From: a virus
IMG/VR virus record: IMGVR_UViG_3300020733_000803
Location: 1 to 32,789 of that record
Reading direction: 5' to 3' (one strand)
DNA: 32,789 bases
Of the stretch, positions 14,228 through 32,789 are shown one piece after another. Position 1 is the stretch's first letter, and every line of letters begins with the position of its first letter. A model generated the notes under the pieces. That model was not told where the DNA came from. It was given only the letters and a program-made list of their open reading frames with translations, and made no database searches. A program made the translations under genes and the position numbers.

Positions 14228-14245
14228 TAGTAAAAAGGAATTAAA

Positions 14246-14473
14246 ATGAAAGCAATAGTATGGAGTAAAAATGCCTGCCCGTTTTGTGTACAGGCCAAAG
14301 CCCTATTAGAAATGAAAGGCATTGAATTCGAAGAACGTAATGTTAATAAAGATTGGACTAAAGAACAGTTGTTGGAAGCAGTACCAACAGCCAGAACTTT
14401 GCCACAGATATTCTTAGATGATAATTACATTGGCGGGTTCACAGAACTCAAGAAACATTTCGAAAAGGTATAA
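14246..14473 (+). CDS. Glutaredoxin (75 aa)
   Basis: Small dithiol reductant for ribonucleotide reductase. Shows CPFC at residues 11-14, the cis-proline TLPQIFLDD and the GGFTEL glutathione-site region, the full set of glutaredoxin motifs. CPFC is a variant of the usual CPYC. AAAAAGGA lies before the ATG, 18 bases after nrdB, so it belongs to the nrd operon. Comparable to NrdC of T4 or GrxC of bacteria. Confidence 0.93.
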   Translation: MKAIVWSKNACPFCVQAKALLEMKGIEFEERNVNKDWTKEQLLEAVPTARTLPQIFLDDNYIGGFTELKKHFEKV

Positions 14474-14474
14474 T

Positions 14475-14771
14475 ATGTTAATTTCAAAAGGTATCGCAGA
14501 AGGTGAAGTGGTTACAATTAAAACTACTGCTGGTGAAGAAATTGTTGCTAAATTGGTAGAAGATGGTCCAACAGGCGTAAAAGTCAAAAAACCATTGTGC
14601 CTTACCGCAACTAAAGAAGGTGTCGGACTTGTTCCATTTTTGTTTACAACAGATCCCGACGGCGAAGTTACTATTACAAAAAATGCAATTATGGTACTAG
14701 CACCAACTATGAAAGATGCCGCTGATACTTATATTCAGCAAACTACCGGCATCAAATTGGCCAAAGCATAA
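14475..14771 (+). CDS. Sm-like small beta-barrel protein (98 aa)
   Basis: The ATG at 14475 follows the glutaredoxin stop by one base with AAAAGG in front; an ATG at 14418 inside glutaredoxin was rejected. The sequence GEVVTIKTTAGEEIVAKLVED, VKVKKPLCLT and GLVPFLF resembles the strand pattern of LSm/Hfq-type barrels, as in a family I recall from T4-like cyanophages. A helical C-terminus follows. An RNA-binding or ring-forming role is possible but unproven. Confidence 0.55.
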   Translation: MLISKGIAEGEVVTIKTTAGEEIVAKLVEDGPTGVKVKKPLCLTATKEGVGLVPFLFTTDPDGEVTITKNAIMVLAPTMKDAADTYIQQTTGIKLAKA

Positions 14772-14774
14772 ATC

Positions 14775-15080
14775 ATGCCAGCTGTAGCTAGACAAGGAGA
14801 TCCGACTACGACCGGACACGGGTGTGATGGTACCACCACTGTGATCGGACCAACCGGACTAGGTGCTAACGTGTATGCCAACGGCATTCCGATTGAATGT
14901 AAAGGTAATCCAACTGCTCCGCATACTATTAATTCGGGTAGATTATGCGTTCCTCACAGTGCGGCAATTAACGCAGGATCTAGCAATGTGTTCGTAGGTG
15001 GCGTTGCTATTGCTCGAGTAGGTGATTCAACAGATGGCGGCTCGATCCAATCCGGGTCTCCAAATGTATTTGCCAATTGA
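14775..15080 (+). CDS. PAAR-domain tail spike tip protein (101 aa)
   Basis: PAAR proteins form the metal-binding cone at the tip of the contractile tail spike, like T4 gp5.4. Visible are MPAVARQGDPTTTGHGCDG, GIPIECKGNP, PHTINSGRLCVPHSAAINAGSSNVFVGG and IARVGDSTDGGSIQSGSPNV, with His and Cys residues that bind the metal. Length is normal for a bare PAAR protein, without toxin extension. It starts three bases after the Sm-like gene stop. It confirms that the virus has a contractile tail. Confidence 0.93.
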   Translation: MPAVARQGDPTTTGHGCDGTTTVIGPTGLGANVYANGIPIECKGNPTAPHTINSGRLCVPHSAAINAGSSNVFVGGVAIARVGDSTDGGSIQSGSPNVFAN

Positions 15081-15149
15081 CTAGACATTTATTTTTAACC
15101 ACTGTACACTAGGTATAAGTACTTGGTACTTGCCTTAAAGGAGAATTAA

Positions 15150-15344
15150 ATGGCTACAAACAAATATGCAGAATTCACTGCAATCGTCGAAGCAATGGAA
15201 GCAGATTTTGAAAAGTTTTATGATAAAGAAGTAGGTGCCGCAGGTACCCGTGTTCGTAAGCATTGCCAAGATTTGGCTAAGTTGTGCAAAGAAACTCGTA
15301 ACGATGTTACAGCAGTTAAAAACGCTCGTAAAGAAACCAAATAA
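15150..15344 (+). CDS. Histone H1-like Hc1-type DNA-binding protein (64 aa)
   Basis: Begins MATNKYAEFTAIVEAMEADFEKFYDKEVGAAGTRVRKHCQDLAKLCKE. The ADFEKFY-K...AAGTRVRK--QDL pattern matches the short Hc1-like histones of Bacteroidetes and related bacterial proteins, which compact DNA through a helical basic domain. It is Lys/Arg rich with no lipid or catalytic motif. It may coat viral DNA or reshape the host nucleoid. AAAGGAG precedes the ATG, and an AAGTAC/GTACTT hairpin lies in the leader (15117-15131). Membership in the family is fairly sure, the role inferred. Confidence 0.75.
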   Translation: MATNKYAEFTAIVEAMEADFEKFYDKEVGAAGTRVRKHCQDLAKLCKETRNDVTAVKNARKETK

Positions 15345-15347
15345 ATA
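15340..15347 (+). promoter_or_regulatory. T4-type late promoter box
   Basis: AATAAATA overlapping the stop of the histone-like gene. Predicted start near 15353, with TAAGGAG in the leader before the ATG at 15375. It would transcribe the secreted protein, iscU and iscA. Confidence 0.55.
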
Positions 15348-15374
15348 GTATTATACTTTTTAAGGAGCAGTATC

Positions 15375-15713
15375 ATGAAAAGTAAACTTATTATAACTTC
15401 AATATTTGCTAGTATACTGGCAATGAGTGCGCTGTTTGCTTATTCCTCAGATGCTCGAGCAGATGGTTGGCATCATGGGGGCGGACACTATGTTTACCGT
15501 CCTGGATACGGTTGGGTAGTTCCAAGTGTTATTGGTGGAGTGATTGGCTATGAGCTAGCCCGTCCTCGTCAACCCGACGTAGTTATAGTTCAACCACAGC
15601 CAGTAATGCCTCCACCAGCGGCACCAGTTTGGCCACAGCCAGCTGGCTATCATTGGGAAGCTATTCTGGATGCTGGTTGTAACTGCTATCGAACAGTGCT
15701 AGTACCCAATTGA
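15375..15713 (+). CDS. Secreted His/Pro-rich protein (112 aa)
   Basis: A clear Sec signal peptide (MKSKLIITSIFASILAMSALFAYSSDARA) precedes a mature part that begins DGWHHGGGH, then a Gly-rich membrane-like VIGGVIGYELA segment, a Pro/Val/Gln region (VIVQPQPVMPPPAAPVWPQP) and a GYHWEAILDAGCNCYRTVLVPN end. It would act in the periplasm or outer membrane. The His cluster could bind metal, which would suit its place directly before iscU, but this is only a suggestion. No enzyme motif is seen. TAAGGAG gives a good start. Confidence 0.65.
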   Translation: MKSKLIITSIFASILAMSALFAYSSDARADGWHHGGGHYVYRPGYGWVVPSVIGGVIGYELARPRQPDVVIVQPQPVMPPPAAPVWPQPAGYHWEAILDAGCNCYRTVLVPN

Positions 15714-15714
15714 A

Positions 15715-16101
15715 ATGGCATACTCAGATAAGGTCATTGACCACTATGAAAACCCGAGAAACGTTGGATCTTTTTCAAAAGATGATCCTGACATTGGTAC
15801 TGGTATGGTTGGTGCTCCTGCTTGTGGTGATGTAATGAAACTACAGATAAAGGTAGATAAAGATGGTATTATTAGAGATGCTCGTTTCAAGACATACGGA
15901 TGTGGTTCCGCAATCGCTTCTAGTTCACTCGTTACCGAGTGGGTCAAAGGAAAAACATTGGATGAAGCTATCAGTATCAAAAATAGCGACATCGCTGAAG
16001 AACTTGCTCTTCCGCCAGTAAAGATACATTGCAGTATATTGGCGGAAGATGCTATCAAGGCGGCCATAAATGATTACCGTAACAGACAAAGCCAAAACTA
16101 A
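15715..16101 (+). CDS. iscU: Fe-S cluster scaffold protein IscU (128 aa)
   Basis: IscU holds a new Fe-S cluster before transfer to target proteins. All key residues are present at the same numbers as in E. coli: C37 and D39 in APACGD, C63 in YGCGSA, LPPVK at 99-103 (the HscA chaperone recognition motif) and C106 in HCSILAEDAI. Length is the family standard, so it looks functional. It starts one base after the secreted-protein stop and overlaps iscA by 32 bases. No IscS cysteine desulfurase or HscA/HscB is in this window; host IscS, or the viral DnaK, could cooperate. Confidence 0.96.
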   Translation: MAYSDKVIDHYENPRNVGSFSKDDPDIGTGMVGAPACGDVMKLQIKVDKDGIIRDARFKTYGCGSAIASSSLVTEWVKGKTLDEAISIKNSDIAEELALPPVKIHCSILAEDAIKAAINDYRNRQSQN

Positions 16102-16396
16102 GATCAAAGCAAATCTTGCCAAGCGTGGTAAGGGTGTTGGTATCCGGGTAGGTGTAAGAACTACGGGGTGTAGCGGATTAGCCTATGTATTAGAGTACGC
16201 AGATAACCTAGACTTCGAAGTGGGCGTTACTAATTATGCCCGCGACGAATTTGCTGTATTAGTTAATGCTAAAGATGAACCTTACCTAAACGGATTAACT
16301 ATAGATTGGGTCCGCAACGGACTTAATGAAGGATTTGAGTTTATCAATCCAAACGAACGTGACCGCTGTGGGTGCGGTGAAAGTTTTAGAGTATAA
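16070..16396 (+). CDS. iscA: A-type Fe-S carrier IscA/ErpA-like (108 aa)
   Basis: Shows the three conserved cysteines of A-type carriers: C34 in TTGCSGLAYV and C100/C102 in RCGCGESF. Length and motif spacing match IscA. It receives clusters from IscU-type scaffolds or carries iron to them. Its start lies inside iscU (32-base overlap), so the two are translated together. IscA versus ErpA cannot be separated without a tree. Confidence 0.93.
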   Translation: MITVTDKAKTKIKANLAKRGKGVGIRVGVRTTGCSGLAYVLEYADNLDFEVGVTNYARDEFAVLVNAKDEPYLNGLTIDWVRNGLNEGFEFINPNERDRCGCGESFRV

Positions 16397-16406
16397 TAGG
16401 ACAGTA

Positions 16407-17459
16407 ATGAAAATATCAAAAATACCTGGACTTGGAAGATTTGGCATCTTTATAGACGACTTAGATTTTACTACAATAACTGACGAAGAATGGTTAGAAG
16501 TAGGACAACTACACTTAAAAAATCTAGTTACTATTATTAGAAACGTAAATCTTGAACCTAGAGACTATGAAAATCGAATACTTCAATGGGGATTTCCTCG
16601 AGGGTTACAATCTTTAAAATTAGCTAAAAAATATAAATCATGTGAGTTTGAAAAGATAGCAACTGAAGATTTTGTAAATGGCATTCCTGTTGACCCAGAG
16701 GATAAGAAATGGTGTCAAAATATTTCCTATGTCATTGCTAGTGAAGTTAGCGAATTTACATCTGTACTACGTGTATCTGGAATGAAAAATGAAGAAGGAA
16801 AACCATTAGGAATGTTCCAAGAAGGTGAGTTACTATGGCACAGTAACGAATCGGGTAACCTTGCATTTACCCCAGGCGTAAGTCTTTTAGCTAAAAAAGG
16901 TGTTGTTGGGTCAGCTACAGGTTTTGTTACAACAACTGATTGGTATGAATCACAGTCAGAAAGTTTTCGTAGTGAACTAGATGAAATGGTTATTCAACAT
17001 GAATTTACCCCAGGTCGAATTAATCCTGGACTTCGTGAAGATCAAGACGATATTATGTACAAAAACATGTGTCCTGAGCCAACTGAAATTCCATTGGTAA
17101 TTCAAAGTCCCCTAGGTATTAAAGGATTGCATTATTCTGTGAACACAATTAATAAAATTAAAGGAATGTCTGCTGAAGAAAGCCAAAAAATATTTAATAT
17201 TATTAATACTGGTATTTTTACAGAAGAAAACATATACGATCATTGGTATCAACAAGATAATGATTTATGTCTATTTGATAACTCAATTACGTTGCATCGT
17301 AGATTAGGCGGAATATCGGATAGATTGTGTTATCGTATTCAGCATGATTATAGTAAAATTACCCCAACAATATCTCCATACTTTCGAGAACCGTTTATCA
17401 GTGATTATAATCAAACAATAAACGGATACTATGAAGTTCAAAAAATGATAGAATCCTAG
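16407..17459 (+). CDS. 2OG-Fe(II) oxygenase-like, TauD-type (350 aa)
   Basis: The start MKISKIPGLG is chosen because AGGA sits just before it and GTATAAT precedes. The fold is TauD/TfdA-like: GELLWHSNESG (H145 at the HxD position but with Asn147 instead of Asp), and LFDNSITLHRRLGG...CYRIQHD (H297, R310) at the end. The HxN variant resembles TauD-like proteins I recall from cyanophages. If the Asn position cannot bind iron it may be halogenase-like or non-catalytic, but the true ligand may be elsewhere. The substrate is unknown. It follows iscA by 10 bases. Confidence 0.75.
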   Translation: MKISKIPGLGRFGIFIDDLDFTTITDEEWLEVGQLHLKNLVTIIRNVNLEPRDYENRILQWGFPRGLQSLKLAKKYKSCEFEKIATEDFVNGIPVDPEDKKWCQNISYVIASEVSEFTSVLRVSGMKNEEGKPLGMFQEGELLWHSNESGNLAFTPGVSLLAKKGVVGSATGFVTTTDWYESQSESFRSELDEMVIQHEFTPGRINPGLREDQDDIMYKNMCPEPTEIPLVIQSPLGIKGLHYSVNTINKIKGMSAEESQKIFNIINTGIFTEENIYDHWYQQDNDLCLFDNSITLHRRLGGISDRLCYRIQHDYSKITPTISPYFREPFISDYNQTINGYYEVQKMIES

Positions 17460-17912: not shown

Positions 17913-17915
17913 ATA
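17908..17915 (+). promoter_or_regulatory. T4-type late promoter box
   Basis: GATAAATA overlapping the ATG at 17915. Predicted start near 17921 lies after that ATG, which supports the downstream start at 18083. The leader (17921-18082, about 160 bases) holds a TTGTCC/GGACAA hairpin (17969-17994) and two AAGGAGA sites. Confidence 0.55.
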
Positions 17916-18082
17916 TGCCTGTTTATAATAATAGTATTTTACTGACAGATACAGAGGATAACTATATATTGTCCCCTAAGGGTTTAGAGGACAAAACGGC
18001 TAACTTAAGGAGAAATAGAAACAGCCAAACATTAACCAATGACGGTACTAGCGATACCTCATCCAGCGTAAAGGAGACAAAA

Positions 18083-18613
18083 ATGATACGCATTATCAAA
18101 ATAGTTTTAAACTGTTTAGTTTTACTAGCAGTAATCGCAGTAGCACAAACAGCAGTAGCAAATAAGTTTCAACAATTGAAACAGGCTCGCGAAACAGCAA
18201 GCCCAATTACAGCACAAATGAGACAAGCCCAATTAGATTGTCTAGCTCGTAATATCTACCATGAAGCAGGCAGTGAGCCTTTTGAAGGCAAAGTAGCTGT
18301 CGCACAAGTTACAATCAATCGTTCAGAAAGCGGAGAATTTCCAAGCGATATCTGTAAGGTTGTATATCAAAAGAACATAGTGTACGAAAAAGTCATGTGC
18401 CAATTTAGTTGGTACTGCCAAAGTCCCAGTGCTATGAAGCCAATGAATGGACCAATGTATACAGAAAGCATGGAAGTAGCCAAAAAAGTGCTACTAGAAG
18501 GATTCCGTTTACCGGACCTAAAGAAAGCCCTATATTTCCATGGGGATTATGTGCAACCAGGGTGGAATAAAAAACCAGTAGCTAAAATTGGCCACCATAT
18601 CTTTTATAATTAA
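18083..18613 (+). CDS. Membrane-anchored cell wall hydrolase, SleB/CwlJ type (176 aa)
   Basis: Family members cut peptidoglycan; the catalytic Glu is E61 in ARNIYHEAGSEPFEGKVAVAQV, followed by INRSESGEFPSDIC and the CQFSWYC region, as in SleB-type domains. An N-terminal membrane segment (IIKIVLNCLVLLAVIAVAQTAVA) may be a signal-anchor. The start MIRIIK was chosen for AAAGGAGA just upstream; the frame is also open back to an ATG at 17915. As a candidate endolysin it could leave the cytoplasm by its own signal. A small membrane protein follows, possibly a holin. Confidence 0.85.
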   Translation: MIRIIKIVLNCLVLLAVIAVAQTAVANKFQQLKQARETASPITAQMRQAQLDCLARNIYHEAGSEPFEGKVAVAQVTINRSESGEFPSDICKVVYQKNIVYEKVMCQFSWYCQSPSAMKPMNGPMYTESMEVAKKVLLEGFRLPDLKKALYFHGDYVQPGWNKKPVAKIGHHIFYN

Positions 18614-22661: not shown

Positions 22662-22929
22662 TCAAGAACGTGAAGTGATGAACATTCTCTCAGAAGAATG
22701 TGCAGAAGTAATTCAAGCAATTAGTAAGTGCCACAGATTTGGCATCGATAATCTTAAACCAGGTAAACCCAAAACCAATAGAGAACACTTGGAAGAAGAA
22801 CTAGGCGATTTGTATGCCATGATTGAAATCCTACAAGAAATGGATGTTGTCAGTTGGACTAACATTGAACAAGCCGCATTAAACAAACGTGAAAAACTTA
22901 AAAAATGGTCAACTATCGAAAACTTATAA
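22654..22929 (+). CDS. MazG-type nucleotide pyrophosphohydrolase (91 aa)
   Basis: Single MazG-like domain that hydrolyses (d)NTPs or alarmones. The metal-binding motif is LSEECAEVIQ (E14, E15, E18), with a second acidic set EEELGDLYAMIE (E49, D52). GGAAG precedes the ATG at 22654, preferred to 22627. Small single-domain forms are common in aquatic phages, where they are proposed to alter nucleotide or ppGpp pools. It fits with the nrd genes. It overlaps the peptidase gene by 25 bases. Confidence 0.85.
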   Translation: MNSQEREVMNILSEECAEVIQAISKCHRFGIDNLKPGKPKTNREHLEEELGDLYAMIEILQEMDVVSWTNIEQAALNKREKLKKWSTIENL

Positions 22930-23633
22930 TCCTATTGGGGTTATTAGTCAGTTCGCATAGTTACGCATTTAATTTGCCAGGCATCACTGCTAAAAGTTGG
23001 TTAGTAGCAGATGGGTCTGGTCAGATACTACAAGGCGAACATACTACCGATGTTAGAAGTATTGCCAGCATCAGTAAACTAATGACCGTTATGATTGTTC
23101 TAGATCAAAAACAAGATCTAGGAGAACATATAGGACCTTACACACGTCAAGAACTTATTAATCTAGCATTAGTAAAATCTGACAATTCGGCAGCCAAACA
23201 ACTTTGTGATCATTACCCTACAGGTAATTCGGGCTGTATACGAGATATGAATATCAAGGCTCGACACTTACAGTTAGTAAACACTAATTTTGTAGAACCT
23301 ACAGGACTTAGTGTCATGAATGTAAGTACCGCTGAAGAACTGATCAAACTGGTGCAGGCCGCCAGCGAGTACCCGGAGATTACAGCCGCCGCCCAAATGA
23401 GCGAAATTAAAATAAAAATACGCAAGAAGTGGCTAGTGTTTCACAATACTAACCCCATCATAGGCAAAAAGTATAAATTTATAGTAAGCAAGACAGGGTT
23501 TATAAATGCATCAGGTGGGTGTATAGTAATGATGTTAGACACCGACATAGGACGCAGGATTGTAGTAGTGCTAGGCAGTAAGAATACTAAAACACGTATT
23601 CCTGAAGCAGATTTTATTGCCAAAAATTACTAG
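22905..23633 (+). CDS. S11-family D-Ala-D-Ala peptidase, compact (242 aa)
   Basis: Shows the three penicillin-binding motifs: S55-x-x-K58 in IASISKLM, S92-D-N94 in VKSDNSAA and K196-T-G198 in VSKTGFINAS. The N-terminus is a signal peptide (LIILLGLLVSSHSYA). S11 enzymes are D,D-carboxypeptidases or endopeptidases in the periplasm. The gap from S55 to S92 is about 30 residues shorter than in E. coli PBP5, and the protein stops soon after the third motif, without the C-terminal beta-domain. It could cut cross-links during lysis or alter the wall. Phage copies are unusual. Confidence 0.85.
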   Translation: MVNYRKLIILLGLLVSSHSYAFNLPGITAKSWLVADGSGQILQGEHTTDVRSIASISKLMTVMIVLDQKQDLGEHIGPYTRQELINLALVKSDNSAAKQLCDHYPTGNSGCIRDMNIKARHLQLVNTNFVEPTGLSVMNVSTAEELIKLVQAASEYPEITAAAQMSEIKIKIRKKWLVFHNTNPIIGKKYKFIVSKTGFINASGGCIVMMLDTDIGRRIVVVLGSKNTKTRIPEADFIAKNY

Positions 23634-23736: not shown

Positions 23737-25647
23737 ATGAGTAAAATCATCGGTATCGATTTAGGTACAACAAATAGCTGTGTAGCAATCGTAGAAAACG
23801 GAATTGCTAAAGTAATCGAAAACAGCGAAGGTGCTAGAACAACACCATCAATCATTGCATATACCAAGGACGAGATCCTAGTTGGTGCAACAGCAAAACG
23901 ACAAGCAGTCACAAATCCAAAGAATACAATTTACGCAAGCAAGCGTCTTATTGGACGTAAGTTTGATGAGCAAGCAGTACAAAAAGACATTGACCTAATG
24001 CCATACACTATTATCAAAGCCGATAATGGTGATGCATGGATCGAAGCCAATGATCAAAAACTAGCGCCACAGCAAGTGTCAGCTGAAGTACTACGCAAAA
24101 TGAAAAAGACTGCCGAGGACTATCTTGGAGAGGAAGTAACTAAGGCTGTTATTACAGTTCCTGCTTACTTTAACGATAGTCAACGCCAAGCAACCAAGGA
24201 TGCAGGTAAGATTGCAGGTCTAGAAGTTCTACGTATCATTAACGAACCGACAGCGGCCGCACTAGCATACGGTGTTGATAAAGAGTCTAAGAAAGACCGT
24301 AAGATTGCTGTATATGACTTAGGTGGTGGTACATTTGATATTTCAATCATCGAAATTGCCAACATTGACGGCGACAAGCAAATTGAAGTATTATCAACAA
24401 ACGGCGATACATTCTTAGGCGGTGAAGACTTTGACCAAGTTCTAATGGATCATTTGGTTGCAGAATTCAAGAAAGATTCAGGTATGGATCTAAAAGCAGA
24501 TGTACTTGCTCTACAACGTTTGAAAGAAGCCGCTGAAAAAGCTAAAATTGAATTGTCATCAAGTCAAAGTACAACAGTTAACTTGCCATATATCACAGCA
24601 GATGCTAGTGGTCCAAAACACTTGAATGTAACTATTAGCCGTAGTAAGTTTGAAGGTATGGTTGAGAAACTAATCGAGCGTTCAATTGAGCCATGTAAAA
24701 CAGCTATGGCAGATGCTAAGGTATCAGCCGGCGACATCGACGAAGTTATCCTAGTTGGTGGACAAACACGTATGCCTAAAGTACAAGAAGCAGTTGAGAA
24801 ACTATTCGGCAAGGCTCCACGTAAAGACGTTAACCCAGACGAAGCTGTAGCCGCAGGTGCCGCAGTACAAGGCGCTGTGTTAGCAGGCGATAAGACAGAC
24901 GTTTTATTGTTAGACGTTACACCATTAACATTGGGTATCGAAACAATGGGCGGTGTGTTTACCAAATTGATTGCTAAGAACACAACTATCCCAACTAAGC
25001 ATTCACAAACATTCTCAACAGCAGAAGATAACCAACCAGCTGTAACTATTAAGGTTGCACAAGGTGAGCGTGAGTTGTTCAAGTATAACAAAATGTTAGG
25101 TGAATTCAATTTAGAAGGTATTGATCCTGCTCCACGCGGCTTGCCACAAATTGAAGTTACCCTAGACATTGACGCTAACGGTATCTTGAATGTAAGTGCT
25201 AAGAACAAAACAACTGGCAAAGAAAACAAGATCACTATTAAATCTGATTCAGGATTAACAGAAGCTGAAATCGAGCGTATGGTTCGTGAAGCTGAAGAAA
25301 ATGCCGAAGCAGACAAAAAGGCAGCTGAATTGATCAATACTCGTAATCAAGCAGAAGGTGCTGTACATAGCCTACGCAAAGATTATAACGAGCACAAAGA
25401 CAATTTAGACATTGCCGATCGCGAGTCTATGGATTCTGCTTTCGAAGCAGTCGAAACTGCAATGAAAGGAGAGGACGTAGAAGCTATCAATACAGCCGTT
25501 CAAAAGCTGTTTGAAAGCTCAACACCTTTACAAACTGCTAAACAAGCCGCCGAAGCCGCTAAGACCAAGGCCGCCGAAGAAGCACCAAAGGAAGGTGAAG
25601 TAGTTGACGCTGAATTCAAAGAAGTTGACAGCGACGACAAGAAGTAA
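23737..25647 (+). CDS. dnaK: Hsp70 chaperone DnaK (636 aa)
   Basis: ATP-driven chaperone. Complete: phosphate-1 motif [13 protein letters not shown], phosphate-2 [14 protein letters not shown], adenosine motif [14 protein letters not shown], the linker [13 protein letters not shown], a substrate-binding domain and a lid ending [10 protein letters not shown], the usual DnaK tail. The length of 636 is typical of bacterial DnaK. No dnaJ or grpE in the window, so it would use host partners. Full-length DnaK is rare in phages. It might also serve IscU (LPPVK motif). A late promoter and two stem-loops precede it. Confidence 0.97.
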
Positions 25648-25659
25648 TATAATAAAAAA

Positions 25660-25687
25660 TGTAGGGTGCCGATAGTCGGGCCCTACA
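25660..25687 (+). promoter_or_regulatory. Stem-loop between dnaK and hsp20
   Basis: TGTAGGG (25660-25666) pairs with CCCTACA (25681-25687), with an inner CCGA/TCGG pair. No T-run follows on this strand. Likely an mRNA stability or processing element; partial termination is possible. Confidence 0.55.
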
Positions 25688-25716
25688 CATTCTTGCTTAA
25701 TATAAGGAGATAAAAA

Positions 25717-26148
25717 ATGGCAACAATGCAACTAAGAGCAATCGATCCAGCTCACTTGGCAAACCTAAGTAGAGCTCTTGTAGGTTTTGATACAATCTTT
25801 AATCAACACTTACAGCAACAAAATGGCAACTATCCTCCACATAACATTGTGAAGTATAGCGATAGTGAATATGCTATCGAAGTAGCAGTAGCAGGATTTA
25901 GTAAAGAAGAAATCACAGTACAAGTTGATCAAGATCAATTGATTGTACGCGGAGTTCAAACAAATAAAGATAACGATACTAAAGAGTATCTGCATCGTGG
26001 ACTTGCTAGCCGTGATTTTGAACAAAGCTATACACTTGCTGAGTATATGGAAGTCAAGGACGCTGAGGTAAAAGACGGTATGCTGATCATCAGTATCGAA
26101 CGTATCGTGCCAGAAGCATTACAACCACGTACTATACAAGTTAAATAA
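25717..26148 (+). CDS. hsp20: Small heat shock protein Hsp20 (143 aa)
   Basis: ATP-independent holdase. A short N-terminal arm (FDTIFNQHLQQQ) leads into an alpha-crystallin domain: NIVKYSDSEYAIEVAVAGFSKEEITVQVDQDQLIVRG, ending in DGMLIISIERIVPEA with the G-x-L motif, and a C-terminal QPRTIQV tail. The pattern is IbpA-like. T4-like cyanophages carry related genes. A strong AAGGAG lies before the ATG. A stem-loop (26155-26172) follows the gene. Confidence 0.93.
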   Translation: MATMQLRAIDPAHLANLSRALVGFDTIFNQHLQQQNGNYPPHNIVKYSDSEYAIEVAVAGFSKEEITVQVDQDQLIVRGVQTNKDNDTKEYLHRGLASRDFEQSYTLAEYMEVKDAEVKDGMLIISIERIVPEALQPRTIQVK

Positions 26149-26154
26149 TCAAAC

Positions 26155-26172
26155 GGGGGAGGCGACTCCCCC
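26155..26172 (+). terminator. GC-rich stem-loop after hsp20
   Basis: GGGGGAG (26155-26161), loop GCGA, CTCCCCC (26166-26172). Very stable GNRA-type loop but no T-run follows, so it may be a Rho-assisted terminator or 3' stabiliser. Confidence 0.6.
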
Positions 26173-26221
26173 ACTATTAAAAACAGTTTTAAATTTATTA
26201 ACCAACGAAAGATATATACAA

Positions 26222-26524
26222 ATGCCAAGTACCGATATTCAAATCGACGAGAAAGTCAAAGTGATTGTAACAGAACCTAAACGTTGGAAGGTCATCTTAC
26301 TAAATGATGACACAACACCAATGGAGTTTGTAATATCGTTGTTAGTTGATATATTCAAACATAATCCAGAAAGCGCCGAGCATGTTATGTTGCAGGTGCA
26401 CGAAACTGGATCAGGAATCGCTGGAATATATAGTTTTGAAATTGCAGAAGCCAAAGCAGTTGAAGCAACTAATACTTCTAGAACTAAAGGTTATCCATTG
26501 CAAATTAAATTGGAGGAAGAATGA
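26222..26524 (+). CDS. clpS: Clp protease adaptor ClpS (100 aa)
   Basis: ClpS delivers N-degron proteins to ClpAP. The core WKVILLNDDTTPMEFVISLLVDIF matches the family, with N28-D29-D30 and H60 in MLQVHETGSGIAGIY as the pocket residues, and the C-terminal PLQIKLE end. Length and motif order are normal. The start has no clear Shine-Dalgarno. The stop overlaps the heme oxygenase start (ATGA), so they are translated together. A viral ClpS could redirect host proteolysis. Confidence 0.95.
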   Translation: MPSTDIQIDEKVKVIVTEPKRWKVILLNDDTTPMEFVISLLVDIFKHNPESAEHVMLQVHETGSGIAGIYSFEIAEAKAVEATNTSRTKGYPLQIKLEEE

Positions 26525-27075
26525 GCCTCCGAGAACTGACTAAAGACGCACACACAAATGCCGAGCGTCAAGAATTTGTAAAAATTCTTTTTAGTGGTAA
26601 AATTAATCCAAAAATTTACGCAACATTTTTAAAAAATCAACATCCGATGTATGAGATTTTAGAAGTGTGTGCTATGCCGCATGGACTATTACACGGGCTT
26701 CCAGATATTCGTCGTGCTCCTGCAATTAACAGTGACTTCATAGAATTGTGGGGATCCGAAGAAAAAGAAAAACCTCAAATTTTACCAGTCACTGATCGAT
26801 ATATCAAGCACATACTCAGTATCAAAGATGATCCTAAAAAACTTATGGCGCATATCTATGTTCGCCATATGGGAGATCTAGCTGGCGGACAGATGATTGC
26901 TAAAAAAGTTCCAGGCAGTGGTCGCATGTACCAATTTGAAGATCCCGAAGGCCTTAAAGTCGCTATCCGTGAACGAATCAGTGATGATATGGCCGATGAA
27001 GCAAAAGTATGTTTTGAGTTCGCCGCTCAACTGTTCAAAGAAATGCTAGAAGTTGTAGAGTACACAGATGAGTAA
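26521..27075 (+). CDS. hemO: Heme oxygenase (184 aa)
   Basis: Opens heme to biliverdin with release of Fe(II) and CO. The proximal His is probably H11 in LTKDAHTNAERQEF, and the distal helix HMGDLAGGQMI (G118-D119-L-A-G122-G123) is the family signature. Length is at the low end, like HemO of bacteria. It overlaps clpS by four bases and the bilin reductase by eight, indicating one operon. Cyanophages carry ho1 with pebS; here the partner is a PcyX-like reductase. Released iron could serve the viral Fe-S and ribonucleotide reductase proteins. Confidence 0.93.
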   Translation: MSLRELTKDAHTNAERQEFVKILFSGKINPKIYATFLKNQHPMYEILEVCAMPHGLLHGLPDIRRAPAINSDFIELWGSEEKEKPQILPVTDRYIKHILSIKDDPKKLMAHIYVRHMGDLAGGQMIAKKVPGSGRMYQFEDPEGLKVAIRERISDDMADEAKVCFEFAAQLFKEMLEVVEYTDE

Positions 27076-27748
27076 AGTTTGGGATACTCTAATAAATATT
27101 CAACATTTATTGGAGACCGAGTTTGGCAGGACTGGCATTGAAATCTTTGAGCCTGGAATGGATCGCTTCAATCAGCCTGGCTGGACTAATAGAGTCTGGG
27201 CTAGTGATCTGTATCGCCGTGCCCACGTTGATGTGGTTGATGCGCGAGATCAAAAAGGACTCTGGATGATGCATTGTTGCATCTTTCCGCATACACACAA
27301 TCCTGCTCCAATTTACGGCTTTGACGTTATAGCTGGTAAGAATAAAATTACTGGCTGTTTTCACGATTATAGTTCTGCTGGCAATCCTAATCACCCTATG
27401 ATACAATGGTTTGGTGAAGAAGTTGCTAAACTCGAATGGCGCAGAGAACGTGAATTGCCCGAGTGGGCACAGCGTATTTTTACCAAGCATATGGTTGCCG
27501 CTGGTAACGTGCAAGATGAAGCAGAACTAGAACAAATCACTAATCTAGCTCGCACAACTCTAGCACACTATTTAGAAACCGTAGGTGAAACTAATAATAC
27601 AGTAATTAGCACCAAATATGAGCAGAATTTCTATGCCCAAAATCAAAAACAAAACCCACATACACCGCGTGTAATGGCTAGTTTAGGGCTAGATGAAGAG
27701 GATGTACGTGTGTTTATCCAGGAATGCCTGTTCCCCGAAATAGTATAA
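27068..27748 (+). CDS. pcyX: Ferredoxin-dependent bilin reductase, PcyX/PcyA-like (226 aa)
   Basis: Reduces biliverdin to a phycobilin using ferredoxin. The family core is visible: RRAHVDVVDARDQKGLWMMHCCIFPHTHNPAPIYGFDVIAG, with D86 likely the central catalytic Asp, and the C-terminal YEQNFYAQNQKQNPHTPRVMASLG..DV..FIQECLFPEI, equivalent to the YCQQQ...TRRVLEKAFG end of PcyA/Peb enzymes. PcyX was described from uncultured marine viruses, thought to infect Alphaproteobacteria, as making phycoerythrobilin. The exact product needs a tree or assay. It directly follows heme oxygenase with overlap, giving a two-step heme-to-bilin pathway. Confidence 0.85.
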   Translation: MSKVWDTLINIQHLLETEFGRTGIEIFEPGMDRFNQPGWTNRVWASDLYRRAHVDVVDARDQKGLWMMHCCIFPHTHNPAPIYGFDVIAGKNKITGCFHDYSSAGNPNHPMIQWFGEEVAKLEWRRERELPEWAQRIFTKHMVAAGNVQDEAELEQITNLARTTLAHYLETVGETNNTVISTKYEQNFYAQNQKQNPHTPRVMASLGLDEEDVRVFIQECLFPEIV

Positions 27749-27758: not shown

Positions 27759-28799
27759 ATGCGAATTATTGACGTTCTATCTGAAGATGAATTTGTTCTT
27801 GAAACCCCAGAACAAGTTCGTGCTGACATCATCCAAAAAGTTAACAAGATAGCCGATGAGCCTGATCTTATTAACGTCCTACACTATGCTAACCAATATG
27901 CTTTTAAGAAAGAAGTTGGAAAATTATCAACTGTAAAAGGTTATAAAGAAAATGTTTCTAACATTATTTTACAAGCAGTTGGTAAAGTTCAAGCACCCGA
28001 AGCGCAAGTTAGAGCATTCTTAAAAAGACTAGCCACAGATGGTATTATCAAAGAAAATCTATTATTAACACCCGGTGCTGTACACAGCATGGATCAAATC
28101 GTTGATACTAAATTTTTACCAATGTTCAAGGCCATACAACTTGATCTATTTGAAAAAATATCAGGTAAGATGGGTGAAAAAGGTGACGTAGGTAAAGGGG
28201 AGTACCTACTGTCAATTTTAAGTCCAAGAATTATTCGTCGTGGAGCACCTGGTGATATTGCCATTGCCGATGTTAAAGTAGAATTAAAAGCAGGTCAAAG
28301 TGGACGATTAGGTCCTGCAGGTAGTCAAGCATTGGCAGGTCGTTTTGACGAGTTTATGGCGGCATGCACTAGAGCTAAACTTATTACTCCACAGGCCGCA
28401 CAACAAGCACAGGCTAACCCAACAGCGTTTAATCCATCTTTGAATATGACAGCATTTAGTCAGTTCTTCGGAGCCCATACTAAAAAAGCATTGGCTCATA
28501 TGCTTAAGATGCATTATCCAACTTTAAACACAACAGCAATGGCCAATGCCTGTGTAAATGGAAATGCTATCGACGGTGCGGCTCTTAAAGCTGAAATGTT
28601 AAAAGCATCGTATCATGTATATCAAACAGCCAAAGAGTTTGATGGTATATTACTAACAGATTACGGTATTAACAAATACCTATACATGAACACTCCAGAC
28701 AGTGCCGCACAAGCCGCACCATTCTTGACAGTTAAGTTCCCTAGTTGGACCGACACTCAAAGTAATACTATAAAAATTACCCTCAAGGGTAGAGCATAA
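27759..28799 (+). CDS. Putative PD-(D/E)XK nuclease-fold protein (346 aa)
   Basis: Unassigned protein with a possible restriction-endonuclease-type core: EYLLSILSPRIIRRGAPGDIAIADVKVELKAGQSGRLGPAGSQAL, where an Asp (D167 or D171), then E175-L-K177, would form the D...E-x-K site. The N-terminus MRIIDVLSED has the L-x-E pattern of the head-targeting-like group. The C-terminal half is helical with a YHVYQTAKEFDGILLTDYGINKY segment. It has no Shine-Dalgarno and an exact late promoter in front. If packaged in the capsid it would be a nuclease injected with the DNA, which is speculation. Confidence 0.5.
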   Translation: MRIIDVLSEDEFVLETPEQVRADIIQKVNKIADEPDLINVLHYANQYAFKKEVGKLSTVKGYKENVSNIILQAVGKVQAPEAQVRAFLKRLATDGIIKENLLLTPGAVHSMDQIVDTKFLPMFKAIQLDLFEKISGKMGEKGDVGKGEYLLSILSPRIIRRGAPGDIAIADVKVELKAGQSGRLGPAGSQALAGRFDEFMAACTRAKLITPQAAQQAQANPTAFNPSLNMTAFSQFFGAHTKKALAHMLKMHYPTLNTTAMANACVNGNAIDGAALKAEMLKASYHVYQTAKEFDGILLTDYGINKYLYMNTPDSAAQAAPFLTVKFPSWTDTQSNTIKITLKGRA

Positions 28800-28801
28800 A
28801 G

Positions 28802-28821
28802 TTCTTAATCTAGATTAAGAA
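28802..28821. promoter_or_regulatory. Perfect 20-bp palindrome at the csg promoter
   Basis: TTCTTAATC-TA-GATTAAGAA reads the same on both strands. It lies where the -35 and spacer of a TATAAT (28831-28836) promoter should be. It looks like an operator for a dimeric regulator. Confidence 0.65.
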
Positions 28822-28830
28822 AACCGCTAA

Positions 28831-28836
28831 TATAAT
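28831..28836 (+). promoter_or_regulatory. TATAAT -10 element of the csg operon
   Basis: Perfect -10 with no good -35 (28808-28813 ATCTAG), overlapped by the palindrome. An activator or repressor at the palindrome could replace the -35 function. Confidence 0.45.
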
Positions 28837-28851
28837 TCCTTCTACTAATGT

Positions 28852-28859
28852 CTTAAATA
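28852..28859 (+). promoter_or_regulatory. T4-type late promoter box upstream of csgF
   Basis: CTTAAATA with predicted start near 28865, 23 bases before the ATG at 28888 and inside an imperfect stem-loop (GTCTTA with TAAGAC). Confidence 0.45.
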
Positions 28860-28887
28860 ATAATAAGACTTAGTGGGAGCGAAGACC

Positions 28888-29355
28888 ATGTCGAAAAAGC
28901 TATTATTAGCATTAGTACTATTGCCATCACTAACGATGGCAGCACCTCTGAACGACTTTACATTTAAAAGTCCGGCCTTTAATGGCAATGGTTACGGCAC
29001 ATACGTATTAACCATAGAAAACGAACAATACACTCGACAACAAACTATTAATCAAGCAGTACAGGCAGCCGCCCAACAGGCCAAAGCTGACGCGGCCAAC
29101 ACTCCAATTAATCAGTTTTTAACAAACTTAGAATCACGTATCTACGCACAGATTAGTCAAAACACAGCAACAGCTATGTTTAGTGGCACTTCAAGTACTT
29201 GCGTAAGTTCAGCGGCTTGTTCATTCCAATTTGATGCAAATACAGCAATCAGTTGGTACTGGGCAGGATCGAACATTGTAATGCAAGTTACACAGCCGAG
29301 CGGATCTAGTACTATCACAGTTCCAACTGGATCATTTAATATGACTGGACATTAA
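28888..29355 (+). CDS. csgF: Curli assembly protein CsgF (155 aa)
   Basis: CsgF docks at the outer face of the CsgG pore and guides curlin nucleation. The start MSKKLLLALVLLPSLTMA is preferred over a GTG at 28873: GGGAG lies before it and it gives a normal Sec signal, cleaved after TMA. The mature N-terminus has DFTFKSPAFNGNGYGTYVL, the CsgG-plug segment (F-x-F-x-x-P-x-F-G/N-G), then a helix TPINQFLTNLESRIYAQI and a C-terminal beta region ending ITVPTGSFNMTGH. Length is slightly longer than the E. coli 138. It is the first gene of the curli operon and is followed after one base by csgG. Confidence 0.9.
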   Translation: MSKKLLLALVLLPSLTMAAPLNDFTFKSPAFNGNGYGTYVLTIENEQYTRQQTINQAVQAAAQQAKADAANTPINQFLTNLESRIYAQISQNTATAMFSGTSSTCVSSAACSFQFDANTAISWYWAGSNIVMQVTQPSGSSTITVPTGSFNMTGH

Positions 29356-29356
29356 G

Positions 29357-30499
29357 ATGAAAAAAACATTACTTGCCCTAGCCATTCTTACAGCATTAAG
29401 CGGTTGTGCAGTTACACAAAAGATGGGTGTAGAGTACAAGCCAGAAGTTGCAGAACGTAAACTACAAAAAGAATTTGATACAATACCTACACCAAACGGT
29501 CCAAAGGTCACTGTAGCAGTTTATAGTTTTAAAGATATGACTGGACAGCGTAAAGCTGATGCCAAGTATGCTAGTTTTTCAACAGCAGTTACGCAAGGTG
29601 CTGAACCATTCTTAATCAGCGCACTACAAGATGTTGGACACGGCACATGGTTTGATGTTGTTGAACGTGTTAACATTGATAATTTAATTAAAGAACGTAC
29701 TATTATCAAGCAAATGCGTGATATGTATGAAGGGCCAAATGCCAAACAGTTGATGCCATTGCAGTTTGCAGGCATTATTATTGAAGGTGGCATTATTGGC
29801 TATGATAGTTCGAGCGAGAGTGGCGGTGCCGCATACCGTTGGTTAGGCATTGGTCCACAGACTCAATATAGCAAAGATATCGTTACCATTAGTCTACGTG
29901 CTGTTAGCGTAAACACTGGTAAAGTGCTGGCAACTGTATCAGTTACAAAGACTGTATACAGCACAGCAGATAGTTTTGCTATGTTGAAATTCTTCAACGA
30001 TGGCACACAAGCCTTTGAAGGAGAAACTGGATTAACTATTAACGAACCCGGCACCTTAGCAGTTAAAGCAACTGTTGAAGCCGCAGTAGTTGAGTTGATT
30101 AAAGAAGGACAACGCAAGGCTGTGTGGGACTTTAGAGAACCACCTAAGCCAGTAGTGTTGAATAAAATTGAAGAAGCGGCGCCTGTAGTAGCTGAAGCAC
30201 CTAAACCACAACCAAAAGTGGCCGAAGATATGGCAGTGAAAGAAGGTATAGCTCCTCCAGTTGTAACTAAAAATGACCCACCACCTGCTGAGGAAATAAA
30301 GTATCTTAAATCAGCGGCCTATTTGTATGCAAAACCTGAGTTAGGCGCACAAAAACGCTGGCAGTTGAAAGAAGGTACACGTTTAAATGTTAAAGTTAAT
30401 GACAAGGGATGGTGGTTTGCTAAGGACGACAATGGACATGGCGGATATGTCCAAGAAAATGATTTAACAGGCGAGGTAAAAGCAGTAACCAAAAAATAA
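29357..30499 (+). CDS. csgG: Curli secretion pore CsgG with C-terminal SH3-like domain (380 aa)
   Basis: CsgG is a nonameric outer-membrane lipoprotein channel for curlin. The lipobox LSGC17 is clear. The core follows E. coli: VTVAVYSFKDMTGQRK, FSTAVTQGAEPFLISALQD, WFDVVERVNIDNLIKERTII, LMPLQFAGIIIEGGIIGYDS, GIGPQTQYSKDIVTISLR and EGETGLTINEPGTLAVKATVEAAVVELI. Beyond the usual end (about 285) there is an Ala/Pro-rich linker and a region (about 312-375, AAYLYAKPELGAQKRWQLKEG...GGYVQENDL) like a bacterial SH3 domain, which could bind cell wall. This extension is not in E. coli CsgG. Confidence 0.93.
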   Translation: MKKTLLALAILTALSGCAVTQKMGVEYKPEVAERKLQKEFDTIPTPNGPKVTVAVYSFKDMTGQRKADAKYASFSTAVTQGAEPFLISALQDVGHGTWFDVVERVNIDNLIKERTIIKQMRDMYEGPNAKQLMPLQFAGIIIEGGIIGYDSSSESGGAAYRWLGIGPQTQYSKDIVTISLRAVSVNTGKVLATVSVTKTVYSTADSFAMLKFFNDGTQAFEGETGLTINEPGTLAVKATVEAAVVELIKEGQRKAVWDFREPPKPVVLNKIEEAAPVVAEAPKPQPKVAEDMAVKEGIAPPVVTKNDPPPAEEIKYLKSAAYLYAKPELGAQKRWQLKEGTRLNVKVNDKGWWFAKDDNGHGGYVQENDLTGEVKAVTKK

Positions 30500-30517
30500 C
30501 AAGAGGACTTAGGTCCC

Positions 30518-30561
30518 AGGAGCAGTGCCAGAGATTAGAAATTTGGCACTAGAACAATATG
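30518..30561 (+). promoter_or_regulatory. Hairpin bringing the curlin ribosome-binding site to its start codon
   Basis: AGGAG (30518-30522) is 36 bases before the ATG (30559). AGTGCCA (30524-30530) and TGGCACT (30544-30550) pair, so folding out 27 bases leaves nine between AGGAG and ATG, the optimal distance. No nearer Shine-Dalgarno exists. Confidence 0.6.
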
Positions 30562-31422
30562 GTTCAAAGTAAAAAAGGCGCTGGCAGTTTGTCGAGAAAA
30601 GTAACTGCAATGCTCGTGTTGTCTGCAATGGCAACATTGGCGAATGCGGCTGATAATAGCATCTATATTAATCAGTCTGGTAGTAGTAGCACAATTAACA
30701 TGACACAAGATGGCGCAGGCAACGTAGTGCGCGGAGTGCAAGGAGTTGGTGGCGGCAATACTACACCAGCAACAATCAACGGTGATAGTAACACAGTCAA
30801 TGTGACACAATCTGGTACAGGTAGTACATTAAACTTTGGTATTCAAACTACCATTGCTAATGGTTCTCCTTTGCAGAATGGTAATACATTTGATTATAGT
30901 GTAACTGGTAACAACGCTACAGCAACTATTGATAGTAACAACAATGGTGCTGGAACTAGTGCTAGTAACTATTTGAATGTTACTCAAGCTGGTAACTATG
31001 CTGGATTAAATGCCAACATTTTAGGTAGTAACAACAGTATCACAGCATCAACAGCTGGCGGCAGTAACAATACTATTGTAACAACTACTAATGGTAACAG
31101 CAATACACAAACTATTGCAGTAACTGGCGGTGGTGCTAACTCTGTAACTATTAATCAAGGTATTGGCGGAACAGCAGTAGCCAGCGGTAACACAGCAACT
31201 ACTAACAACAATGGTGTGGTAAACCTTACTATCACTGGTGCAAGTAACACCGTAGCTATTGCACAAACCAGTGCTGGTTATGCTGATACAACTGTACTAG
31301 CATTAAACGGTAGTAACAACAATGCAACTATTGTGCAAAATGCAAGTGCTGGTAACACAACAGTGAATGTACAAAGCACTGGTAGCAGTAACACATTTAA
31401 TATCCACAGTAATGCACATTAA
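30559..31422 (+). CDS. csgA: Curlin-repeat amyloid subunit, CsgA/CsgB-like (287 aa)
   Basis: A signal peptide (SRKVTAMLVLSAMATLANA) precedes curlin-type repeats: NQSGSSSTINMTQDGAGN, DSNTVNVTQSGTGSTLNF and many later NxxxIxQxGxxN-like units, with Asn/Gln/Ser/Thr/Gly dominating. Curlin repeats stack into amyloid beta-solenoids on the cell surface. At 287 residues it is about twice the E. coli CsgA, and the repeats are less regular. CsgA versus CsgB cannot be decided. It overlaps the next gene (TAATG). Confidence 0.85.
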   Translation: MVQSKKGAGSLSRKVTAMLVLSAMATLANAADNSIYINQSGSSSTINMTQDGAGNVVRGVQGVGGGNTTPATINGDSNTVNVTQSGTGSTLNFGIQTTIANGSPLQNGNTFDYSVTGNNATATIDSNNNGAGTSASNYLNVTQAGNYAGLNANILGSNNSITASTAGGSNNTIVTTTNGNSNTQTIAVTGGGANSVTINQGIGGTAVASGNTATTNNNGVVNLTITGASNTVAIAQTSAGYADTTVLALNGSNNNATIVQNASAGNTTVNVQSTGSSNTFNIHSNAH

Positions 31423-31595
31423 TGTATAACGGTCAATTCTTGCAAATGATGTATCAGCAATGGTGTAATGGTAATGACTCATACACTTATGCTTGGAAAG
31501 ATTTTGTAGAATTGGCCGCTAGACATAATGCAGTTACAACAGAGTTAATGTTAGAAGAACTAAAAAAGTATAGCTGGTTCAGCTGGAGGGATTGA
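31422..31595 (+). CDS. Small protein between curlin and FecR genes (57 aa)
   Basis: The ATG shares its A with the curlin stop and its TGA overlaps the next ATG (TGATG), so it is a real member of the operon despite its size. The sequence MYNGQFLQMMYQQWCNGNDSY, WKDFVELAARHNAVTTELMLEELKKY and WFSWRD is aromatic-rich, soluble and helical, with no signal peptide. I recognise no family. It may be cytoplasmic and regulatory. Confidence 0.75.
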   Translation: MYNGQFLQMMYQQWCNGNDSYTYAWKDFVELAARHNAVTTELMLEELKKYSWFSWRD

Positions 31596-32728
31596 TGAAA
31601 TTATGGGTTTTAATTTTTTCGTTACTAATTACATTAAATGCCTACGCTGGAATAGGAACTATAACAGAGCAGGTCAATACACCACCATCTATTGTACGTT
31701 CTAAAACTACACTAACTGGTGCCAAGGGTACCGGTGTTGAAATGGCAGACGCCATTAACACAACCAAAGGCAAAGTAGGTATTACATTTGCTGATGATAC
31801 AAAAGTAGAAGTAAACGAAAACAGTAAACTGGTAATCGACGACTTTGTCTATGATCCTAAATCAAGCAAAGGCGGCAAACTAGCTATGAAGTTTGCTAGC
31901 GGTACTGTCAAGTATGCTAGTGGTGCAATCGCACACAATGATCCCTCCAAAGTAGCTATCAATACTCCAAGTGCAACTATTGGTGTGCGCGGCACTGACT
32001 TTACTGCAACAGTAGATGATGCTGGTGTTAGTACAATTATCTTGTTGCCCAGCTGTCCTATTAATAAAATTATTCGTGACATTGAAGCAGAATGTAAAGT
32101 AGGAAAAATTGAAGTTTATAATGATGCAGGTAGTGTCATGCTAGACAAAGCATTTCAAGGCACTAAAGTAGAAAGTCGCGGCGTTGCTCCAATGAAACCC
32201 GCTGTATTAAAATTATCACTAGATACCATTAATAATTTATTGATTGTTAGTCCACCGTCAGAATTAAACAAGAAAGATAAGATAGAATCTCAGACTAGAG
32301 TATTACAAGTAGGAGATATGCTGGCCGTAAATTATCTAAAACAAAATTTCTTAGAAAACGAATTTCAAAAAGAAGGTCCTGTTTGGGATAACCCTCTAAC
32401 TAAACCACTACTACAACAATACTTCTTAGAAGATATTTTCAATATTTTAAGCCAACAGTTGCAACAAGAAGCCGCGGCTCTGTTGAGTAATCAACTAAGT
32501 CCACAGGCACAATTATTTCCAGATTGGTTTAAAGCCAGTCTAGTTACTAAAGAAGTAACACCTACAACAGCAACACTATGTCGCCCAGACGGCAGTAGTA
32601 ACGTAGCTTGTATCAGTGTACCCAAAGATCAAAATACAACAACTTTTATTCAACAAGCAGACGGCGTGAATATTAAGAACCGTATTAATGCTGGCGGCAA
32701 TACTATTATTACACTAAAGCAGAATTAA
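31595..32728 (+). CDS. Secreted FecR-domain protein (377 aa)
   Basis: The ATG at 31595 (overlapping the previous stop) is preferred over a TTG at 31592. A signal peptide (MKLWVLIFSLLITLNAYA) is followed by a FecR-like beta domain at about 45-150: TTKGKVGITFADDTKVEVNENSKLVIDDFVYDP, GKLAMKFASGTVKYASGAI and the signature VAINTPSATIGVRGTDFTATV. The rest is a helical, Gln-rich region (QQYFLEDIFNILSQQLQQEAAALL). Such periplasmic FecR proteins are found near secretion and adhesin genes. The role in the curli operon is unknown. Confidence 0.85.
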   Translation: MKLWVLIFSLLITLNAYAGIGTITEQVNTPPSIVRSKTTLTGAKGTGVEMADAINTTKGKVGITFADDTKVEVNENSKLVIDDFVYDPKSSKGGKLAMKFASGTVKYASGAIAHNDPSKVAINTPSATIGVRGTDFTATVDDAGVSTIILLPSCPINKIIRDIEAECKVGKIEVYNDAGSVMLDKAFQGTKVESRGVAPMKPAVLKLSLDTINNLLIVSPPSELNKKDKIESQTRVLQVGDMLAVNYLKQNFLENEFQKEGPVWDNPLTKPLLQQYFLEDIFNILSQQLQQEAAALLSNQLSPQAQLFPDWFKASLVTKEVTPTTATLCRPDGSSNVACISVPKDQNTTTFIQQADGVNIKNRINAGGNTIITLKQN

Positions 32729-32729
32729 T

Positions 32730-32789
32730 ATGAAACGTTTTCTTACAATATTCTTTTCATTACTAATGATCCATTTAACTGGTTACAGT
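32730..32789 (+). CDS. Start of a secreted or membrane protein (partial)
   Basis: ATG one base after the FecR gene stop. Only the first 20 codons are present (MKRFLTIFFSLLMIHLTGYS), a clear signal peptide or anchor. In bacteria FecR-domain genes are often followed by an outer-membrane or CHASE2-type gene, but this cannot be judged here. It runs off the window. Confidence 0.7.
   Translation, partial: MKRFLTIFFSLLMIHLTGYS

Follow-up and report, generated by a model that had tools for sequence, protein, structure and literature searches.

Curli genes are known from several aquatic phages. In pelagimyophages, csgF and csgG were described in 2020 with hypothetical partners, and the freshwater pelagimyophages studied there were without the operon (PMC7029224). 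The full viral set with curlins, FecR, and cyclase was reported in 2022 in a study that also records the absence of CsgC, CsgD, and CsgE from alphaproteobacterial modules and of CsgE from pelagiphages (PMC9599517). We analyzed a predicted curli (type VIII secretion system, T8SS) operon in the IMG/VR virus record IMGVR_UViG_3300020733_000803. The window is this entire record, 32,789 bases, linear and probably a fragment. Its locus is a new member, from a new lineage, of a module already known in marine phages (the SAR11 phage HTVC008M and the OM43 phage Melnitz). The initial annotation of the window had treated a complete viral set as something new, which it is not, since the set with curlins was published in 2022 (PMC9599517) and curlins are annotated in both HTVC008M and Melnitz.

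The pelagiphage T8SS module (HTVC008M and HTVC023P-type podoviruses; PMC7029224, PMC9599517) has the order csgF-csgG-curlin-fecR-curlin2-adenylate cyclase, which the window resembles, while the window differs in the SH3-like tail of its CsgG, which is 43% identical, and in the hsp20-clpS-heme oxygenase-bilin reductase genes upstream. The Methylophilales phage Melnitz has csgF, csgG, curlin, fecR, curlin2, and cyclase annotated in GenBank, with a CsgG 47% identical to that of the window, but the paper describing it reports no csgA/B and proposes lysis control (PMC9004378), and its curlin 2 is without a recognized head. A metagenome-assembled genome (MAG) of Hyphomonas sp. TMED17 carries csgF-csgG-curlin-fecR and a CHASE2 cyclase-like gene in one run; unlike the window it is cellular and has no SH3 tail, and its fecR and cyclase genes are not separated by a second curlin. 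The csgBAC/csgDEFG system of E. coli shares the CsgG pore, the CsgF N-terminus, and CsgA-like repeats. In contrast to E. coli, where CsgB lacks a long N-terminal head, curlin 2 of the viral system has one, and CsgD, CsgE, and CsgC were not noticed in the window, for which no dedicated search was made.

The csgF-csgG-curlin operon of the window

The genes csgF, csgG, and curlin lie in tandem on the + strand at 28888-31422, separated by gaps of 1 nt and 59 nt, just as the initial annotation had described them. The features of the operon are as follows (L002 is a close relative, an IMG/VR contig).

28888..29355, + strand: csgF (155 aa), matching PF10614 (E=2e-8, above the cut-off) and phrog_35372 (6e-40)
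29357..30499, + strand: csgG (380 aa), matching PF03783 (E=4.6e-45)
30500..30558, + strand: spacer between csgG and curlin, forming two short hairpins (fold -17.6 kcal/mol, z=-3.4)
30559..31422, + strand: curlin 1 (287 aa), rich in N, T, G, and S, with a signal peptide; alone it matches PF07012 at E=0.02, below the cut-off
31422..31595, + strand: orf57, a small protein (57 aa) with homologues in L002 and L006 (phmmer 4e-40 and 1e-16)
31592..32728, + strand: fecR-domain gene (378 aa), matching PF04773 (1.6e-10) and phrog_37870 (2e-111)
32732..32789, + strand: 5' part of curlin 2, of which 19 residues are encoded before the record ends; frame and start agree with the L002 open reading frame at 11374-13557

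The csgF product, in which a signal peptide is followed by the N-terminus FxFKSPAFNGN, is predicted to be a secreted plug or chaperone that binds CsgG; its N-terminal motif aligns, weakly (E=0.0095), with CsgF in the CsgFG complex of E. coli. The csgG product is an outer-membrane secretion pore lipoprotein, with a lipobox (LSGC17), a CsgG domain at residues 49-258, a proline-rich linker at ~260-310, and an SH3-like domain at ~311-372. The CsgG profile also matches E. coli CsgG (E=1.2e-63), and structure prediction, one of the checks suggested for this locus, gave an AlphaFold2 (AF2) model (mean predicted local distance difference test score, pLDDT, 64) with a Foldseek match to the CsgG structure 4uv2 (E=2e-15). 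Curlin 1 was placed by its family: a profile of 52 aligned viral curlins, with the window curlin at its head, matches the solved curlins 8c50 (E=4.8e-36) and E. coli CsgA 8enq (E=1.1e-6), and curlin 1 itself has residue-class periodicity at 11-12 and 23-24. We therefore predict it to be a CsgA-like amyloid subunit, a secreted curlin-repeat substrate. A smaller viral-curlin profile detects curlin genes near csgG in many bacterial loci as well. Profile searches thus uphold the proposed family placement, directly for CsgF and CsgG and through the family profile for curlin, and pore, plug, and amyloid substrate together make up a predicted curli secretion operon in a phage.

Downstream, the hydropathy of the FecR-domain protein shows an N-terminal hydrophobic segment and no second membrane span, and the protein is predicted to be exported. 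The nucleotide match between the window and L002 extends to 32789, into the start of curlin 2. The L002 copy of curlin 2 has 727 aa, with head domains at the N-terminus and a curlin tail, and is followed, three genes on, by a cyclase gene; Pfam recognizes CHASE2 and cyclase domains in the homologue from contig L007. Pore, plug, and substrate are present as first claimed, but the set described as complete is in fact larger, including fecR and the second curlin, with the cyclase in relatives.

The GC content and codon fit of the csg genes fall inside the range of the other window genes, in agreement with the phage-like codon style noted earlier. An assembly chimera was ruled out, as initially judged, since the separate contigs L002 and L004 have the same junction and keep the order dnaK-hsp20-clpS-heme oxygenase-bilin reductase, a variable gene, and csgF-csgG. 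The late-promoter context assigned to the operon was not borne out: TATAAATA-like sites are at chance level in the window (2 exact sites against 3.5 expected, and 78 against 73 when one mismatch is allowed), and csgF has none immediately in front of it. Its description as T4-like fits the kind of phage, but the 32.8-kb window is too short to show a T4-like (Kyanoviridae-like) myovirus, and T4 gp23 is not in it. Long contigs (235-330 kb) that carry the module do contain gp23 (G006, G012, G013, G017, and G022), and one of these (G012, locus L121) has the window-like arrangement dnaK-hsp20-clpS-heme oxygenase-bilin reductase-csgF-csgG with SH3 tail-curlin-fecR, which supports the view that T4-like phages carry this kind of module. 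No Rfam family or tRNA reached the gathering score in the window.

Conservation, exchange, and the second curlin

A profile scan of viral contigs yielded at least 588 confirmed relatives. The same operon, which the initial annotation had proposed to look for elsewhere, was examined in a census set of 88 distinct viral contigs, with denominators counting the loci where the contig is long enough. All 88 contigs have csgF, a curlin lies directly after csgG in 75/75 loci, and fecR is present in 63/63. An adenylate cyclase is found downstream in 46/52, L002 included; the window ends before that position. The second curlin was recognized by profile in 46 of the 58 loci, and inspection of the slot revealed a curlin-tailed protein in nearly all others. 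The order of the viral T8SS module, csgF-csgG-curlin-fecR and then curlin 2, is found in the window, where curlin 2 consists of its first 19 codons.

Pairwise dN/dS values are ~0.02-0.24 where estimable, indicating purifying selection on all four genes csgF, csgG, curlin, and fecR. From 28802 to 32789 the window and L002 are 95% identical. Within this region identity is 84-88% in csgF and mostly 91-100% from mid-csgG to the end (one block 88%). Since identity is far higher there than in the flank from dnaK to bilin reductase (mostly 60-88%), the downstream part of the module has recently been exchanged by recombination.

Modest evidence indicates that the extra SH3-like domain reported for CsgG is real. 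The C-terminus matches SH3_4 below the cut-off (4.5e-4), the corresponding region of the AF2 model is beta-rich with pLDDT ~79-88, and the model has weak matches to SH3 structures in the PDB (E ~1e-3 to 1e-2). Homologous tails occur in 21 of the 88 viral contigs, mostly together with the heme oxygenase block, as also in the window. None was detected in 80 bacterial loci with a narrow hidden Markov model (HMM) built from 3 tail sequences, a wider search not having been made. We found no published description of this tail.

The C-terminal curlin tails of 37 long second curlins all fall in a single homology cluster, while their N-terminal heads are varied, with PA14 in 9, F5/8 type C in 6, GLEYA in 3, and other domains or no Pfam family in the rest. 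In yeast flocculins and adhesins related to them, PA14 and GLEYA are the domains that bind the ligand. A single protein of the cultured phage HTVC008M combines PA14 with curlin repeats, both above the cut-off. This pattern of a conserved curlin tail with interchangeable heads suggests that the second curlin is usually an adhesin. We found no published description of such a protein, and neither PA14, lectin, or adhesin nor head domains of curlin 2 came up in the main text of PMC9599517.

One head type of the window lineage, as seen in L002 and L003, occurs elsewhere fused to F5/8C and an autotransporter barrel (contig L112, PF03797 3.7e-9); another contig (L110) has the same head type with an F5/8C match and no barrel match. 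The autotransporter gene of L112 lies downstream of hsp20-clpS, and no csg gene was found in its 12-kb locus. Since the same head type is carried by curlin tails and by an autotransporter barrel, the recurring feature appears to be the display of ligand-binding heads, whatever the export route. Foldseek matches of the L002 curlin 2 heads to the PDB all had E>0.01, and these heads were left as beta-rich domains without an assigned family.

Proposed function of the module during infection

We propose that the module works as a phage-borne curli system. A CsgG-CsgF pore would be placed in the host outer membrane during infection, possibly anchored to peptidoglycan by the SH3-like tail of CsgG, and would export two amyloid subunits, the plain curlin encoded in the window and the second curlin. 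The tail of curlin 2 would polymerize with curlin 1 into fibers, and its variable N-terminal head would bind a ligand that is probably a glycan. A sensory or regulatory role is probable for FecR and the CHASE2 cyclase, which accompany the module. With a coat of adhesin-bearing amyloid, infected cells or their debris would aggregate with neighbors or stick to particles, and the phage would benefit as new hosts stay close to the bursting cell (the "sibling capture" idea of PMC7029224). On the gene content and domain architecture described above, infected cells probably display adhesin-tipped amyloid in order to aggregate or attach. Such adhesive amyloid secretion is favored over a lysis pore or an uptake pore because the substrate genes are constant, the second curlin carries adhesin heads, and the constriction-loop sequence of CsgG is within the range of ordinary bacterial CsgG. 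Of the roles first suggested for the operon, a surface amyloid accordingly gains support from the adhesin-headed curlin 2, and a release pore loses it through the retained substrate and the ordinary constriction loop.

Several observations weigh against this interpretation. Clumping was looked for in Melnitz and not seen under the culture conditions used (PMC9004378), the curlin 2 of this phage being one without a recognized head. In ~18 loci the second curlin is short (183-267 aa) and has no head. The heads of the nearest relatives of the window (L002, L003, and L005) belong to no Pfam family and resemble carbohydrate-binding and flocculin domains only weakly in fold, the AF2 model of L002 curlin 2 is poor overall (pLDDT 59.5), and the window itself holds just 19 residues of the protein. 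Finally, no CsgE gate, CsgC, or CsgD appeared among the annotated genes, though no search was aimed at them.

An amyloid coat might alternatively serve as a superinfection shield, blocking receptors against rival phages. This possibility was raised in PMC9599517 and is compatible with the same anatomy, but it does not specifically explain the binding-domain heads, and kin would be blocked too; we consider it unlikely. Improbable, in our estimate, is a lysis or permeability pore, in which CsgGF would have been turned into a gated hole in the outer membrane that sets the time of lysis in the manner of a pinholin, with the curlins secondary. For Melnitz such a role was put forward on the basis of AlphaFold models and of control by a glutamine riboswitch (PMC9004378); a riboswitch regulates tmRNA in that phage. 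Many relatives have two small predicted membrane proteins (phrog_18771) just upstream. However, a bare pore needs neither the curlin that invariably follows csgG, nor the near-universal second curlin, nor adhesin heads, and the constriction-loop sequence of CsgG lies within the bacterial range. The small membrane pair is also absent beside csgF in L002-L004, and nothing similar precedes csgF in the window.

An uptake pore is highly improbable. In that case an open CsgG would admit large nutrients, siderophores, or cofactors, with FecR as an iron regulator, as suggested in PMC7029224 and PMC9599517; the FecR domain is present, and heme oxygenase adjoins the module in the window lineage. CsgF and curlins would not be needed for uptake, though, and the FecR protein has an N-terminal hydrophobic segment alone; a non-exhaustive scan of the window genes identified neither a TonB receptor nor a sigma factor to partner it. 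The Hyphomonas MAG module further suggests that FecR belongs to a bacterial curli operon. That the module is a mere passenger, often exchanged by recombination and without a phage role, would suit its high mobility and its near-identity between the window and L002 where the flanks differ, but is scarcely credible given purifying selection in csgF, csgG, curlin, and fecR and a gene order conserved across many contigs, with at least 588 viral relatives.

Under adhesive amyloid secretion, the adhesin-headed curlin 2 gives "sibling capture" a concrete part, present in the cultured HTVC008M, and shifts the balance away from the lysis pore. More tentatively, aquatic phages may run a modular flocculation system, an amyloid with exchangeable lectin-like heads that are swapped like tail fibers and sometimes mounted on autotransporters, so that the phage chooses what its dying host sticks to. 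If the adhesive-amyloid reading is right, abundant aquatic phages would actively control the aggregation of infected bacterial cells, with consequences for recombination, for phage encounter rates, and for how cell material sinks.

Bacterial relatives, the csgF leader, and upstream genes

Among contigs of bacterial genomes a scan yielded 529 relatives, of which the best are mostly from Alphaproteobacteria. In a quick CsgG tree with long branches, all viral CsgGs group with three rows labeled bacterial (L021, L097, and Hyphomonas L022). L021 and L097 were not counted as bacterial, their gene content being phage-like. L021 (JADHSL010000125.1, a 6.9-kb contig under a "Pirellulales" MAG) has the order hsp20-clpS-heme oxygenase-bilin reductase, a further gene, and csgF-csgG-curlin, and is probably a misbinned phage contig. 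The Hyphomonas sp. TMED17 locus (L022) lies on a 705-kb contig with bacterial neighbors, where csgF-csgG-curlin-fecR is followed by a CHASE2-cyclase-like protein, so named by sequence resemblance. At least one bacterial curli operon thus seems to include FecR and a cyclase, for which we found no published description. The abstract of PMC9599517 states that bacterial T8SS operons contain neither histidine kinase nor adenylate cyclase. The Hyphomonas contig qualifies this statement of the abstract, and one MAG contig cannot give the direction of transfer.

Two further features precede the operon.

28800..28890, + strand: csgF leader, a 20-nt palindrome followed by a strong hairpin (RNA fold -24.1 kcal/mol, z=-5.25, 0/200 shuffles)
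23737..27748, + strand: upstream block of dnaK, hsp20, clpS, heme oxygenase, and bilin reductase (Pfam)

The leader hairpin pairs the GGGAG Shine-Dalgarno sequence of csgF. It is also found in L002 and L004, where the 3' arm is invariant and the 5' arms are different yet still pair, and translational control of the operon is possible.

In the upstream block, full-length DnaK (636 aa), Hsp20, and ClpS are encoded in one run at 23737-26524, and heme oxygenase and a ferredoxin-dependent bilin reductase, at 26521-27748, adjoin the curli module. Aquatic phages have been described that carry cassettes of the latter two (PMC11480375; Mosig). In E. coli, DnaK has been found to promote the biogenesis of curli (PMC6123696), and we speculate that the phage dnaK nearby could likewise help here. 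Across the census, hsp20-clpS is found upstream of csg in 54/76 loci and heme oxygenase with bilin reductase in 30/76. The alternative, two membrane proteins of ~92 aa from a single family (phrog_18771), occurs in 14/76, and both types are never found together on the coding strand. The pair lies just upstream of csgF in many phages (for example L007:7027-7589 and L017:6808-7370); its members are adjacent, too short for histidine kinases, holin-like in appearance, and without a Pfam family. A histidine kinase gene before csgF, as in the podoviruses of PMC9599517, is not present in the window, where orf346 and the hsp20-clpS-heme oxygenase-bilin reductase block stand instead.

Between bilin reductase and csgF, each relative carries a different gene (window 27759-28799; L002:5648-7441; L003:6108-7412; L004:5819-7438; L021:2870-4411), and the window copy has no family match in Pfam and PHROG scans. 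All share a similar short N-terminus beginning MR (MRIIDVLSE, MRVLDII, MRALEFLSE), which is reminiscent of T4 capsid-targeting sequences, and some have E-x-K motifs like those of PD-(D/E)XK nucleases. This position is possibly a slot for injected nucleases. Other host-like genes of the window (10809-17459, 17915-18613, and 22905-23633) encode NrdA/NrdB, a NifU-like protein, a TauD-family dioxygenase, a cell-wall hydrolase, and a D-Ala-D-Ala carboxypeptidase-like peptidase.

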